Below are positions 16,147 through 21,450 of a stretch of 30,160 nucleotides of DNA, one piece after another; the stretch's first letter is position 1, and every line of letters starts with the position of its first letter. The DNA is from a virus. The stretch covers positions 1 through 30,160 of the IMG/VR virus record IMGVR_UViG_3300032323_000678; one strand, written 5' to 3'. The position numbers were made by a program, and so were the translations under genes. The notes under the pieces are model-generated. The model worked only from the letters and a program-made list of their open reading frames with translations, did no database searches and was not told where the DNA came from.

Positions 16147-16503
16147 TCATTGATCCCACACTGGATTAGGTTTAACCGGCCAAGTTGGGTCTGCGATAGG
16201 TTCGATAATATAGGCACGCAATTGGGACCTATAAGATTCAAAATCAGACTTATTAGCAAGATTGACGTCAGGCAACATAGCCCAATCTACTTCGGCAATG
16301 AGTTCTTTTGCTCTTTTTTCGCAGGCCGCAAGTATCCAAACGCTGGACAAGCGTGAAATTTCTGCATCAATTTCTTCCCGGGCCGGGCATGTTTGTACTT
16401 GATCGTTCCACTCAAGGCCGCTGTAAGCGTCTCCTCGCAAAACCCACTGTGCATTTGGTCTCAAAGACATTAAGGCATCAGGTATCTGTGGTGTTCTTGT
16501 CAT
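16147..16503 (-). CDS. Tail-fibre assembly chaperone-like protein
   Basis: This 118-residue protein resembles phage tail assembly chaperones of the Phage_tail_APC type. The family pattern is a helix with RAKELIAEVDWAMLPDV, then FESYRSQLRAYIIEPIADPTWPVKP near the C-terminus (residues about 62-115). The W-x-x-LPDV and YR-x-x-LR pair with a closing WPVKP is characteristic. Such proteins help fold, trimerise or attach fibres. It is the last gene of the fibre cassette, after a GGAGA ribosome site 12 nt past the previous stop. That position beside the adhesins is what the family predicts. Confidence 0.75.
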   Translation of the reverse strand: MTRTPQIPDALMSLRPNAQWVLRGDAYSGLEWNDQVQTCPAREEIDAEISRLSSVWILAACEKRAKELIAEVDWAMLPDVNLANKSDFESYRSQLRAYIIEPIADPTWPVKPNPVWDQ

Positions 16504-16515
16504 TTATTTCTCCAT

Positions 16516-17109
16516 TTAAGCTATTGCAATTATTGTAATAATTGGCATTCCAAATTGATTGCCGCTGGCACCGTCCCAGTAAGTGGTTCCGTGCAATGCC
16601 AGTGGGTTGCCAGAACCATATCTTCTGGCCTGCATCTTCAGTGTTTTTCCCGAAGTCCACGTAGCCTGCCGTCCTGTGTTCTCGTTTGCTACGCCACCAA
16701 TTGCAATCGTCCACTCAAAGCTATAACGTCCTTCCGGATAAGTGCCAGACCTATTGTGGCGAGCAAACACAACCTCTGCGCTATCTATAAAAAATCTAAA
16801 GTGCCCAATGCAATGAGATCCACTTGGCCAATAATGATTGCAGTGGAAGATGTATCTTACTTCTGTGGTTCCTACCGGGGGTGTGTATGTTATAGAGGAA
16901 CCTGTTACGTCTGCATACGTATCTGCCAACGCCTGTTGTGTTGTGACATTTTGAACTGTGTATGTGCCCGATGCGCCTGTAATTGAAGAGCCATCGCAAG
17001 GACTGCTCAAGTATTCAATAATCTGACCAGGCATCCGTGGGTAGCCATTGACCAGCACATTTGTGCCGTTTGGTAGTTGCATTGTGTCAAGTTTAAGTGT
17101 GGATGGCAT
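16516..17109 (-). CDS. Small adhesin/fibre-tip protein with jelly-roll-like domain
   Basis: The ATG at 17109 is chosen because it shares one base with the upstream stop (TAATG) and has GGAG 11 nt upstream; it gives 197 residues. It begins MPSTLKLDTMQLPNGTNV and has MPGQIIEYLSS, the PG-x-I motif found in its two upstream paralogs. A beta-rich body follows (VTGSSITYTPPVGTTEVRYI, GRYSFEWTIAIGG, KTLKMQARRYG), with a hydrophobic end, PIITIIAIA. Cys and His residues are unusually frequent in the middle (FHCNHYWPSGSHCIGHF). It is probably a receptor-binding or tip protein at the end of a fibre. Confidence 0.75.
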   Translation of the reverse strand: MPSTLKLDTMQLPNGTNVLVNGYPRMPGQIIEYLSSPCDGSSITGASGTYTVQNVTTQQALADTYADVTGSSITYTPPVGTTEVRYIFHCNHYWPSGSHCIGHFRFFIDSAEVVFARHNRSGTYPEGRYSFEWTIAIGGVANENTGRQATWTSGKTLKMQARRYGSGNPLALHGTTYWDGASGNQFGMPIITIIAIA

Positions 17110-17642
17110 TACGGTGCAATCTCCATTATTGTAATTGTTGATCCGCCGGTGTAACCTGCGTAATTTAAATATATAGTTCCGGAAGTCCAACGACCTATCA
17201 TTGCTGTGTATTGAATAACAGTTCCTGCGGCAACATTGGGGGTATCTATTATTTCTCTCTTTATGTTCCAACTATTGGTACCCGCGCCATTGCCAGATCC
17301 CATCCAAGTATCTCCAGCTGCGCCATCGACACCAATCAGTCTGGTAGTTACGCCGGATATTGTTCTTTGCAAACCCATATTGCAGCCGCCGGCACTGGTG
17401 TAATACCCTTGACCAACCACCATTATTAAAAAGCGACTGTTTGATAATTTTGGTGTGATGCTTAAATCCCCGTTGGTTGCTGCTACATATACTTGGTTGG
17501 TAGTCAAAATGGTTTCGTTGTTGTATGTTTTGTATACTGTCTGAACCACAAGCCCTGACTGTGATAATGTATTTCCTGCAGGAATAGATATTATTCCACT
17601 ACCAGTTCTAGCGGTAATACCAGAAACACGTAGGTTACTCAT
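17109..17642 (-). CDS. Small adhesin/fibre-tip protein with jelly-roll-like domain
   Basis: This protein has 177 residues from the ATG at 17642, which overlaps the upstream stop as ATGA. Its ribosome site GGAG lies inside the upstream gene's last codons. The layout is MSNLRVSGITARTGSG, then GLVVQTVYKTYNN, DLSITPKLSNSRFLIMVVG, and a beta body ending in STITIMEIAP. The VVQ, SITPK-S-S and IT-MEIA segments are shared with the 18220 gene, marking them as paralogs. It is likely an outer adhesin of the fibre. There is no catalytic motif and no signal peptide. Confidence 0.8.
   Translation of the reverse strand: MSNLRVSGITARTGSGIISIPAGNTLSQSGLVVQTVYKTYNNETILTTNQVYVAATNGDLSITPKLSNSRFLIMVVGQGYYTSAGGCNMGLQRTISGVTTRLIGVDGAAGDTWMGSGNGAGTNSWNIKREIIDTPNVAAGTVIQYTAMIGRWTSGTIYLNYAGYTGGSTITIMEIAP
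17116..17137. repeat. 22-bp direct repeat at fibre gene junctions (copy 1)
   Basis: This copy runs from gcaatctcc to gtaattg and differs in one base from the copy at 17646-17667. On the minus strand it encodes the ITIMEIA ending and contains GGAG, the ribosome site of the next gene. Both copies begin 5 bp upstream of a stop codon. Confidence 0.85.
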
Positions 17643-18220
17643 GCTGCAATCTCCATTAATGTAATTGAACTTGTTCCAGCTTCGTGGCCGCCGGCTGCAT
17701 ATCCGACTGTTCTGTTTGTATGCAATACGATAGCCGTGTCGGTTACTACACAAGCCTGATATGTTACGGCCGAAGTTGTTGCCGGAGAATCTAAGAAATT
17801 ATACATAGTCATTTCAGGCGTGCTATTGCTATCTACATCTCTATAACTCAATGCCGAAATATGCAACCCGGTGTTTCTATCAGTGGGCCAGGCCGGGTTA
17901 CGACCAATTAGTGTTCCGTTACGTTTAATATTCCACATCAAATTCCAGGTAGCTGCTTCATTGTTAAATTCGCCAAACCATCTGACTACTACGTATATTT
18001 GACTTGCTGTGCTTTTTGGAGTGATAGAACAGTTTAAATCTGGTATGTCAGTAAAGGTGGTATAACTATTAGGAACAGATACTGTTGTCTGCGACCATAT
18101 ATGATTTTGAACCACTTGAAGAATGTGCCCGGGCGCATATAGTATAGTTGGGCTAGGAACGTTGATTCGATTTCCTGCGGTAGACGGGGCCGACAGTGAT
18201 GACACAGTTAACCTACTCAT
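17639..18220 (-). CDS. Small adhesin/fibre-tip protein with jelly-roll-like domain
   Basis: This protein has 193 residues from the ATG at 18220 (ATGA overlap with the upstream stop). It starts MSRLTVSSLSAPSTAGNRI and has APGHILQVVQNHIWSQTT, TFTDIPDLNCSITPKSTASQ, a beta-rich body, and the ending GTSSITLMEIAA. The PGHILQVVQ and SITPKSTAS pattern is a family I recall from many phage fibre and appendage proteins with a jelly-roll head. The last codons double as the ribosome site of the next gene. It is probably a receptor-binding tip protein, and one of three tandem relatives. Confidence 0.82.
   Translation of the reverse strand: MSRLTVSSLSAPSTAGNRINVPSPTILYAPGHILQVVQNHIWSQTTVSVPNSYTTFTDIPDLNCSITPKSTASQIYVVVRWFGEFNNEAATWNLMWNIKRNGTLIGRNPAWPTDRNTGLHISALSYRDVDSNSTPEMTMYNFLDSPATTSAVTYQACVVTDTAIVLHTNRTVGYAAGGHEAGTSSITLMEIAA
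17646..17667. repeat. 22-bp direct repeat at fibre gene junctions (copy 2)
   Basis: This is the partner of 17116-17137 with 21 of 22 bases identical and the same distance to the adjoining stop and start codons. A degenerate third version (gcaattattgtaat) lies at 16526-16539 at the end of the third paralog. Confidence 0.85.
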
Positions 18221-18768
18221 ACAATTACCCACTCCCCGCCATCGGCGATAACGACCTCAACACCATCGGCGATAGTGATTGGACCAACACTCATTGCATT
18301 TTCTGTTGTGTCAATTGTCACATTCGCTGAAATAGTTCTGGTGTTATAATAAAATTGTCCAGTATTGTTTACTCTTGCTGCGGTAATACTACTAGTAGTA
18401 TTAATATTTCCAGCTGTACCAATTCCGCCTGCAACTACCAATGCACCTGTTGTGGTTGAAGTTGACGTTGTTGTTGCCGCTACTACAACATTACTAGTGG
18501 TACTTGAACCAAGGATTGCTCTACCCGGGGCTTGTAAACTGCCTCCTGCTGTAATATTGCCAGTAATTCCAACACCGCCAGTAACTATCAAAGCACCATT
18601 TGTGGTATTAGTACTGGCAGTGTTAGAAGTAATTACAAGATTACCGGTGGTCAAAGTACCGGCTGTAGTTACCGTTTTTATCCAAGCACCTTTTGTACTG
18701 TTATAGTTATAAACAATACCGTTTACTGTTGCTTGTTGTCCGTTAGTTGGCGATGTTGGAAATGACAT
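18217..18768 (-). CDS. Short fibre-shaft protein with FPTSPTNGQ N-terminal module
   Basis: This 183-residue protein is very rich in Thr, Ser, Gly, Ala and Val. Residues 1-32 are the attachment-type module MSFPTSPTNGQ...YNYNSTKGAWIK shared with two neighbours. Two copies of a beta module follow (TNGALIVTGGVGITGN at about 58-73 and TTGALVVAGGIGTAGN at about 105-120). The same module occurs in the large fibre at the right edge. The end is DGVEVVIADGGEWVIV, a capping motif common at phage fibre C-termini. The next gene overlaps as ATGA. It is probably a short trimeric shaft or adaptor holding the tip proteins encoded downstream. Confidence 0.82.
   Translation of the reverse strand: MSFPTSPTNGQQATVNGIVYNYNSTKGAWIKTVTTAGTLTTGNLVITSNTASTNTTNGALIVTGGVGITGNITAGGSLQAPGRAILGSSTTSNVVVAATTTSTSTTTGALVVAGGIGTAGNINTTSSITAARVNNTGQFYYNTRTISANVTIDTTENAMSVGPITIADGVEVVIADGGEWVIV
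18737..18768. repeat. 32-bp near-identical repeat at fibre gene start (copy 1)
   Basis: The first 32 bases of this gene, coding MSFPTSPTNGQ, match those at 21419-21450 with a single difference. This is much higher identity than the rest of the two genes show. Confidence 0.85.
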
Positions 18769-19054: not shown

Positions 19055-20185
19055 TTATCCTAATAGAACTCCTGAAAAGTGTGAGTGTGATCCCCAGTAC
19101 TGGAGTCCACTTATATTTTGCCAATCACCTACTGTAACAAAGTCGTTGGCATTTAAACTTATAACCGCTGACTGAGAAAACCCTGCGCCGGCATCCATTT
19201 GTAAATCGTTGTAACCTCCCCCATTTACTTTTATCGCACAACGTCCGGTAGCTGAATTTACAAATACCGACCAAGTAAATAGATATCTTCCGGCCACAGG
19301 AGCAGTGAATCTGTAGTTTCCTGTGTTGTAATGGCCTCCTATGTTGTATATAGCATTACTCATTACAAGGTTGCCTTGATTGCCTAAGGTTTGATTACTG
19401 CCAGGGCCGTTGGCATAAAAGGCGGGCTGAAAAGGTTGGGTCACTACCCCGTTTCTATCAATACGCATGTGTTCTCTATGAAAATTTCCAGAGTTATGCG
19501 TTTCGAACGCTATTTCTTGATGTACCCCCGACACTGTATCAAACACTACGGCGGCACCACCTGTTGTTCCTAATATATATGCACCACCGCTATTCAAATA
19601 CTCGATCCTAACTTTTGATGAGGCTTGAAAGCGAATATTACCTGCGCTACCAACAGTTATTTTTTCTGATCCGGTTGTTGTGGCCACTTGTAAGTTTCCG
19701 CCGACGTCGACTCTAACACGTTCTCCGCCTCCAGTGTAAATGGTTACCGGGAGGTGTGAACCTGTTCCTGTTAACACGTTCTGAATTCTTAAATCGGTTA
19801 CAGTCTGTACAAGTTGACCAATTGATGAATTGTTTGGATCGCTACTAGTCGAAACAGAAAATGACGCTGTGGTAGCAGATCCGTTTGGTATTGCATATAT
19901 GTTGGTTGCACCATTCACTGTGCTCGTCTGAAACATCGCACGGTTAGCGATTGTTACGTTACTAAAATCGCCAACGATTCGATTTCTTGTGCCGGTGAAG
20001 GTTAGGTTACCAGCCGCACTTAAATTTCCTGTAGTAGTAATATCTCCTGGTATACTGATACTGTTAGTAACCAATGGTGCTGCCACATTGGCCTTGTTCC
20101 AAACACCTTTGGTGCTGTTGTAAACGTAAACCAGATTATTAACTGTGGCCAACTGACCGTTTGAGGGACTATTAGGAAACGGCAT
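19055..20185 (-). CDS. Tail fibre protein with C-terminal C1q-like domain
   Basis: This 376-residue protein starts with the shared module MPFPNSPSNGQ...VYNSTKGVWNK (residues 1-32). A Thr/Gly-rich beta shaft follows to about residue 250 (ITTTGNLSAAGNLTF, GERVRVDVGGNLQVATTTG). Residues about 255-376 (QPAFYANGPGSNQ, YNTGNYRFTAPVAGRYLFTWSVF, CAIKVNGGGYND, VISLNANDFVTVGDW) form a C1q/TNF-like jelly roll. Such trimeric heads bind surface ligands in other phage fibres. The start shares one base with the upstream stop (TAATG), and GGGGAG at the end of the upstream gene is its ribosome site. Confidence 0.86.
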   Translation of the reverse strand: MPFPNSPSNGQLATVNNLVYVYNSTKGVWNKANVAAPLVTNSISIPGDITTTGNLSAAGNLTFTGTRNRIVGDFSNVTIANRAMFQTSTVNGATNIYAIPNGSATTASFSVSTSSDPNNSSIGQLVQTVTDLRIQNVLTGTGSHLPVTIYTGGGERVRVDVGGNLQVATTTGSEKITVGSAGNIRFQASSKVRIEYLNSGGAYILGTTGGAAVVFDTVSGVHQEIAFETHNSGNFHREHMRIDRNGVVTQPFQPAFYANGPGSNQTLGNQGNLVMSNAIYNIGGHYNTGNYRFTAPVAGRYLFTWSVFVNSATGRCAIKVNGGGYNDLQMDAGAGFSQSAVISLNANDFVTVGDWQNISGLQYWGSHSHFSGVLLG

Positions 20186-21450
20186 TAGAATCTCCCCACA
20201 GCTATTTCAATCGTTTTAACTTCACTGGTCATAATATTTTCTAAACTTTTTCCTAGTATGCATCCTGGTGCATATCTTTCCGTAATACATCGTTGTGCTG
20301 TACCTGACAATTTACTGGTAACCAATAGATCGCCTTTACTAACTGGGCCTAACACTCGGCAAGGCACACGGCCGGTCAAGGCCACAACCAATCCTTCTAT
20401 GCTGTCATTCATTATATATGCAGGATTGGTTGATATTACCCCAGCCACTCTTGAATCGTGGTCTCGTGTGGTAACGGTTACTTCTTGGTCGCCACCAAAT
20501 ACTACTACAGTGCCGGCAGTATAATTATAATCAGACACATACTTTTCGGCCAAATCAGCGTACTGTGCAGAAGTTGCCCTAGCAAACACTGTGTTGAATC
20601 CAGCACCAGTTGCTCCAATATTGCCCGTACCTGCGCTACCTGCATTGACAATTGCTGTTGCTAAATTGGCCGAATTGACTGTAATTGATCGTTGTACTGT
20701 GATTGTGTTTGATACCAATGCGTCTGGTATGTTGGCCGAAGCAGATCCAATGTCGACCCACACATTGCTTGACCCATCGTTTATACGTAAAAATAATATG
20801 TCAGTATCTGTGTCGTACCACGAATCACCTAATAGCGGACTGGTAGGGGCAGTAGGACTAGCTGTAAAATTGGTCTGTGTGTCTGGGCTGCTTACGTCTA
20901 CCCATTGACTGCTGTCGCCGTCGGGAATGTATTCGTACAAGATGTCGGTATCAGTATCGTACCACTTGTCGCCGCGGCTGGCTCCTGCCGGTGCAGTGTT
21001 TGCTGTAGTAAATGTTATACCACTGATTGGATTGCCATTGCCGGACCAGTACAATCCCGTAGCAGTACGAAGTGCATTAGCAGTCACATTACCTGCGATG
21101 TTGGCTGCTGGTGGATTAAACTCTACATTGGCTCCCATGTTAACTGTAGCGCCGGCGCTGGTAAATGACCATTTACCCGATGAGTCTACACTCATAGCTT
21201 CAGGACCAAGATAAATTGTATTACCACTGAGCCAAATATCTTTCCAACGCTGTGTAGGTGATCCAAGATTATAAGTTACATTAGCTGTAGGTGTTAAATT
21301 GCTAGAAATGCCGCCAACAGATAAGTTACCTGATAGTGACATATCAGTTAATGCAATTTTTTTCCAACTATTGCTAGCCGAAGTATACTGGTAGGATACT
21401 CCGTTAAGCGCGGCTATTTGTCCGTTAGTTGGTGATGTTGGAAATGACAT
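20185..21450 (-). CDS. Tail fibre protein with GDKWYDTD modules and DLAE/GVISTNPAY C-terminal domain
   Basis: This 421-residue protein has the shared N-terminal module at residues 1-32 (MSFPTSPTNGQIAALNGVSY). Next comes a beta part with LGSPTQRWKDIWLSGNTIYLG, then two tandem modules, RGDKWYDTDTDILYEYIPDG...WVDVSS and LLGDSWYDTDTDILFLRINDG...WVDIGS, at about 160-235. The C-terminal domain (about 295-421) reads YADLAEKYVSD, GTVVVFGGDQEVTV, RVAGVISTNPAYIMND and LTGRVPCRVLGPVSKGDLL, and ends in AVGRF. This domain is common at the ends of phage fibres and recurs in the 23584 gene. The last codons (GTG GGG AGA) serve as ribosome site for the next gene. Confidence 0.87.
   Translation of the reverse strand: MSFPTSPTNGQIAALNGVSYQYTSASNSWKKIALTDMSLSGNLSVGGISSNLTPTANVTYNLGSPTQRWKDIWLSGNTIYLGPEAMSVDSSGKWSFTSAGATVNMGANVEFNPPAANIAGNVTANALRTATGLYWSGNGNPISGITFTTANTAPAGASRGDKWYDTDTDILYEYIPDGDSSQWVDVSSPDTQTNFTASPTAPTSPLLGDSWYDTDTDILFLRINDGSSNVWVDIGSASANIPDALVSNTITVQRSITVNSANLATAIVNAGSAGTGNIGATGAGFNTVFARATSAQYADLAEKYVSDYNYTAGTVVVFGGDQEVTVTTRDHDSRVAGVISTNPAYIMNDSIEGLVVALTGRVPCRVLGPVSKGDLLVTSKLSGTAQRCITERYAPGCILGKSLENIMTSEVKTIEIAVGRF
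20895..21078 (-). repeat. GDKWYDTD module, about 60 residues (copy 1)
   Basis: It encodes RTATGLYWSGNGNPISGITF, then GDKWYDTDTDILYEY and WVDVSS. It matches the stretch at about 22288-22480 in the adjoining fibre gene almost residue for residue at the key positions. Confidence 0.8.
21419..21450. repeat. 32-bp near-identical repeat at fibre gene start (copy 2)
   Basis: This is the partner of 18737-18768, differing at one base. A more diverged version opens the gene at 20185, and an internal version (TSPTNGQFLQYD...GKW) lies near the end of the 27270 gene at about 26290-26360. Confidence 0.85.

Follow-up and report, generated by a model that had tools for sequence, protein, structure and literature searches.

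The last codons of a family of fibre-tip genes, found in many aquatic phages, very probably carry two messages at once. They encode the C-terminal peptide of the tip protein and, where the next gene overlaps the stop codon, they contain a GGAG tuned to act as the Shine-Dalgarno (SD) site of that gene, most likely in coupled translation. The peptide is conserved, the overlaps share a geometry, and the synonymous codons that create GGAG are chosen according to whether an overlap is present. The likely role of the arrangement is translational coupling of a tip gene to the next tip gene or to a probable fibre-assembly chaperone.

Junctions in a tandem array of fibre-tip genes

The window (the whole stretch of DNA analysed, 30,160 nucleotides) is part of the genome of a phage with a contractile tail, as indicated by tail sheath genes, and its run of fibre genes lies on the minus strand (Table 1). 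Three consecutive genes, here called F1, F2 and F3, form a tandem array of stand-alone tips of 177-197 amino acids. The last codons of F1 are ATT ACA TTA ATG GAG ATT GCA GCA TGA, and those of F2 are ATT ACA ATA ATG GAG ATT GCA CCG TAA. An earlier note on this DNA had pointed to a GGAG located 8-11 nucleotides before an overlapping ATG in endings that encode MEIA, and this is what we see at both the F1/F2 and the F2/F3 junctions. It had also described near-identical endings in widely differing genes. Indeed, the two endings share 22 of 23 bases, compared with 45% nucleotide identity in an alignment of the whole genes. The best of 500 shuffles of F2 reached only 16, so the match between the endings is not due to chance. 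Within the window, the motif occurs only these two times.

Table 1. Features of the fibre gene run in the window. C-termini are given up to the stop codon.
Feature	Position	Strand	Length (aa)	Remarks
Upstream fibre gene	20185-21450	-		C-terminus EIAVGRF; next gene starts at TAATG
GGAG in upstream fibre gene	20192-20195			Part of GGGGAG in the last codons, ahead of the TAATG start
Preceding fibre gene	18217-18768	-		C-terminus GGEWVIV; ATGA overlap with F1
GGAG in preceding fibre gene	18232-18235			11 nt before F1 ATG
F1, fibre-tip gene	17639-18220	-	193	TNF-like jelly-roll domain; C-terminus ITLMEIAA
F1 C-terminal motif ATTACATTAATGGAGATTGCA	17645-17665	-		Encodes ITLMEIA
GGAG (SD core) in F1 Met-Glu codons	17651-17654	-		8 nt before F2 ATG
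ATGA	17639-17642	-		F1 stop overlapped by F2 start
F2, fibre-tip paralog	17109-17642	-	177	C-terminus ITIMEIAP
F2 C-terminal motif ATTACAATAATGGAGATTGCA	17115-17135	-		Encodes ITIMEIA
GGAG in F2 Met-Glu codons	17121-17124	-		11 nt before F3 ATG
TAATG	17107-17111	-		One base (last A of the stop) common to F2 stop and F3 start
F3, third tip, more distant	16516-17109	-	197	C-terminus ITIIAIA, without GGAG
GGAG after F3 stop	16510-16513	-		6 nt before the next gene's ATG; separate ribosome site
Tail fibre assembly/chaperone-like gene	16147-16503	-	118	Matches phrog_4912 (tail fiber assembly) and phrog_9114

F3 provides a natural contrast, for it has no GGAG in its ending and the gene that follows has a GGAG of its own past the stop codon. 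That following gene, whose match to Phage_tail_APC is below the cut-off, is of the kind most often found downstream of the motif elsewhere. Because the fibre genes ending in GGEWVIV and EIAVGRF also carry a terminal GGAG together with an overlap, more than one kind of C-terminus seems to have acquired the intragenic solution.

The motif as the final strand of a TNF-like tip

F1 and F2 are paralogs (BLASTP identity of 31% over 85 amino acids; full-length profile comparison, E 2e-13), and F3 is weakly related to their family (hhalign probability 70). F1 has a significant profile match to the tail fiber protein family phrog_6942 (E 8e-18), in which it aligns to positions 534-707 of 708, that is, to the very end. 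F2 and F3 alone are below the threshold for phrog_6942; F2 is linked to it through the F1 family profile, and F3 is linked weakly. F1 thus resembles the C-terminal domain of phrog_6942 proteins, but the tips in the window are stand-alone proteins in a tandem array. A nucleotide search of cultured phages with the tip region gave no useful match, and F3 had no match among cultured phages.

The predicted structure of F1 is a confident monomer model (mean pLDDT 89.8) with the fold of a jelly-roll beta-sandwich and with TNF/C1q-type matches. These include the C-terminal domain of Pgp3 and the TNF-like lectins PLTL and BC2L-C (N-terminal domain), with Z of 11.5-12.6. In the model, the motif corresponds to the final beta-strand (residues 184-191). 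Its Glu is invariant in 91 aligned homologs and, among the matches listed, is found at position -4 from the end in 361 of 372 tips, with or without an overlap. The C-terminal peptide (hydrophobic-T-hydrophobic-M-E-I-A-x), in the model the last strand of a TNF-like receptor-binding tip, is kept for protein reasons.

Synonymous codon choice depends on gene overlap

Since the peptide, and above all the Glu, is kept even in tips that lack an overlapping downstream gene, MEIA could be conserved as a beta-strand alone, with GGAG a by-product of ordinary codon usage. The codons used for the peptide argue against this. GAA and GAG were counted in scans of the tip family; the figures apply to the matches listed, and p-values are approximate because the sequences are related. 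In separate scans for each codon, the next start was overlapped by 137 of 150 GAG tips versus 38 of 83 GAA tips. In scans that allowed either codon, GAG was present at 72 of 80 ATGA junctions (90%), as opposed to 6 of 32 tips terminated by TAG (19%; odds ratio 39, approximate p 5e-13). TAG-terminated tips serve as a non-overlap control, as neither ATGA nor TAATG overlaps are possible there. In the gene bodies of the same tips, GAG accounts for 20-28%.

The result extends to other endings. A profile built from the tip domain without the motif yielded 119 further tips with noncanonical endings among the matches listed. In the 117 of these that were counted, GAG was used in 74 of 87 overlapping tips versus 9 of 30 separate ones. 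The codon before the Glu behaves similarly. Where this codon has synonyms, it ends in G in 33 of 33 overlapping tips versus 4 of 14 separate tips, taken over all tips (approximate p 2e-7). For example, CAG and ACG are found at overlaps versus CAA and ACA in separate tips; Gln at this position is without exception CAG at overlaps and CAA elsewhere.

Lineage-specific codon bias is not the cause, because the contrast holds within single contigs. Of 40 contigs with overlapping as well as separate tips, 31 have more GAG at the overlap, 1 has less and 8 have equal shares (31:1, p 1.5e-8, approximate given related sequences). GGAG is located at exactly 8 nucleotides in 89 of 97 ATGA junctions of the tip family, versus 7 of 241 ATGA overlaps between other genes of these contigs, a set that includes spurious frames. 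Separate tips are followed by the next gene's own SD after the stop in 55 of 73 cases. Given the GAG frequencies, the G-ending synonyms and the contrast within phages, conservation of the protein alone is a very unlikely explanation. The proposal in the earlier note that the MEIA codons are the next gene's ribosome site is, by contrast, well supported by sequence comparison, in that synonymous choice tracks overlap even within single phages.

GGAG is favoured at overlaps, not required, because GAA is used at 51 of 278 overlapping junctions (about 18%) among the matches listed. Junctions into two families of small proteins (55-67 amino acids, starting with MKMAQEVTPELR... and MKPTASSVQAQ...) have GAA in 18 of 19 cases; these proteins (clusters such as L074, L322, L109 and L110) are probably membrane proteins. 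With fibre or chaperone neighbours, by contrast, GAG is used in 200 of 222. Either a weaker start signal is kept at the small-protein junctions, or the true start is slightly downstream.

A gene that follows a TAG-terminated tip usually has its own SD, often a TAGGAG built with the stop codon. In such tips (L067, L069, L116, L314, L319 and others), the stop codon is often part of the next SD (GGATAGGAG...ATG), and this is a second way to pack the signal.

Distribution of the motif and its downstream genes

The earlier note had suggested looking for the shared stretch at fibre-gene junctions of related phages and at what follows it. The exact 20-mer pattern ATTACANTAATGGAGATTGC is present in 57 IMG/VR contigs, and in 57 of 57 an open frame ends with it and reads ITxMEIA at the C-terminus; a start codon sits on the stop or follows within a few bases. 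(Start codons in all junction counts are mechanical calls.) The stretch therefore marks gene ends, and very different genes come after it: among the matches listed, the downstream proteins at overlapping junctions form 26 clusters. The largest cluster (136 members) matches phrog_9114, as does the gene that follows F3, and the second (86 members) is another fibre gene. A scan of a genome collection produced only seven motif matches, five with the same fibre-chaperone arrangement; these five sit in metagenome bins or single-cell contigs and are probably phage. Because matches in this collection are so few and mostly of probable phage origin, the motif looks essentially viral.

An exact 20-mer at fibre gene ends in 57 contigs might also be a DNA element kept as sequence, such as a recombination or integration site or a signal of the mutagenic-homing type. 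The tips upstream of the 20-mer do in fact differ greatly, and the gene after it may be almost the same. However, among equivalent junctions, the codons for Ile (ATT/ATA/ATC), Thr (all four), Leu or Val at -6, and Ala vary freely, and phages with a common downstream gene are no more alike at the synonymous sites of codons -7 and -8 than expected by chance. At synonymous positions of equivalent junctions, we found no base conservation beyond the peptide and GGAG. We consider a DNA element extremely improbable, and conservation of the whole 22-bp stretch as DNA was rejected, since synonymous positions vary. The idea of the earlier note that this stretch is a unit of DNA is thus replaced by a narrower one, in which only the peptide and GGAG are held.

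Cultured phages

Cultured phages mostly follow the rule. It applies at annotated overlaps in S-B05, HTVC010P, Kolga, S-SSM7, MEP402, DC33, Melnitz-3, Lederberg and S-WAM2. The three successive tips of P-SSP7 have, respectively, ATGGAG with ATGA, CAGGAG with TAATG, and TACGAA without an overlap. The deposited genomes include an exception, ctn9Y15, in which an ATGA overlap has GAA; this record derives from a metagenome. P-SSP7, the Pelagibacter phages HTVC010P and Lederberg, and the Methylophilales phage MEP402 resemble the window in having the same endings and GGAG geometry, with overlaps of deposited coding sequences. Their tandem tips are 28-33% identical to F1 at the protein level and are mostly annotated as hypothetical or putative tail fibre proteins.

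The taxonomy line of PQ492659.1 (Limnohabitans phage DC33) gives Inoviridae, yet the genome is 39 kb long and has fibre-tip and endolysin-type genes. This label looks wrong.

A proposed model of translational coupling

Overlapping genes with an intragenic SD are a known setting for termination-reinitiation (PMC6728339; PMC10666635). In four of five overlapping pairs in Escherichia coli, removal of the intragenic SD reduced reinitiation by 60-90% or abolished it (PMC6728339). The tip junctions resemble these pairs in having an ATGA or TAATG overlap and an SD in the upstream 3' end at a workable distance, and by this analogy termination-reinitiation is the most likely mode of coupling. The known systems are described as an SD for each gene pair, whereas in the tip family one conserved C-terminal peptide supplies the SD, and synonymous codons are switched by the presence of an overlapping downstream gene.

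We therefore propose the following model, in which the last beta-strand of the tip would be conserved for the protein. A G-ending codon followed by GAG would then place GGAG at a constant distance, 8 or 11 nucleotides, from the start, at ATGA or TAATG. Ribosomes, which presumably bind this GGAG, would sit over the next gene's start signal as they end the tip. On reinitiating after termination, the same ribosomes would translate the next tip or the assembly chaperone from the same message. The pairing between GGAG and the anti-SD is only 4 nucleotides, and many fibre-tip genes have separate SDs.

The benefit may be matched amounts of fibre and chaperone. In the myocyanophage Pam3, the TNF-like tail fibre gp24 and its chaperone gp25 form a 3:3 complex (PMC9608196), and a matched supply would suit such a chaperone-dependent fibre. 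Pam3 gp24 is, like the tips in the window, a TNF-like tip of an aquatic phage, and it needs a small chaperone; unlike them, it has a glycine-rich distal domain (PMC9608196). A term search of this paper returned no mention of gene overlap (PMC9608196).

Free ribosomes may also initiate de novo at the same GGAG, because in predicted RNA folding nothing points to a concealed SD (p 0.32 for native flanks compared with swapped ones). An RNA structure selected to hide the SD was considered and rejected: the site was slightly less accessible than control sequence, but swapping the flanks gave the same value.

Literature searches for MEIA with tail fiber and for tail fiber with ATGA overlap returned no paper, and a search combining tail fiber, SD and coupling returned only an unrelated review. 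Intragenic SDs at ATGA overlaps are already known, and a family-wide peptide tuned in this way appears to be new.

A possible role in the exchange of tips

The earlier note had pictured each tip gene as a self-contained unit, exchanged or duplicated with its translation signal attached. A signal is indeed attached, but it serves the next gene, and the tip's own signal lies in the end of the preceding gene. As an addition to dual coding, the motif might act as a modular seam, in which tips are swapped or chained by crossovers within the motif while the next gene continues to be translated. We offer this only tentatively. The same downstream gene occurs with unrelated tips in 30-32 clusters; because closely similar downstream genes pair with unrelated tips, we conclude that the tips are replaced next to a neighbour that stays, and that GGAG survives the replacement. 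The last residue goes with the downstream class, being mostly Q before another fibre and A or G before a chaperone-like gene (odds ratio 15, or 32 for canonical endings), and 68 of 253 contig strands have tandem runs of two to five tips.

Synonymous codons do not agree on whether crossovers fall within the motif. The Ile codon at -3 is identical in 0.83 of comparisons versus 0.42 expected (p 1e-5, approximate because sequences are related), but for the Ala codon at -2, which is closer to the downstream gene, identity is about as expected (0.53 versus 0.49). Some excess of identity at codons -9 and -10 argues against a crossover confined to the motif, and codons -7 and -8 also vary with downstream class, a sign of lineage effects. 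Among the compared contigs, no pair had the same tip and a different downstream gene. The signal of synonymous identity between phages with a common downstream gene was strong at first and became weaker after matching by overlap type and weighting of clusters. We regard the seam idea as plausible and the synonymous evidence, which is suggestive, as mixed.

A broader proposal, which we consider rather unlikely, is that in the tip superfamily of aquatic phages the C-terminal strand is a universal coupling plug, that is, a fixed-length ending that carries the next gene's start signal and at which exchange preferentially occurs. If so, tips and chaperones could be rearranged, copied and strung together in polycistronic arrays with no need for separate ribosome sites.

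Conclusions

The dual-coding interpretation would place one short stretch under two codes, as a strand of a receptor-binding protein and as the signal from which translation of the following gene starts. Since the tip family includes members with and without overlap, it supplies its own control, and selection on intragenic SD sites becomes directly measurable. In the annotation of aquatic phages, the start of the next fibre or chaperone gene can be placed where ITxMEIAx is followed by ATGA or TAATG. Dual coding also suggests why arrays of tips may grow and turn over without loss of expression.
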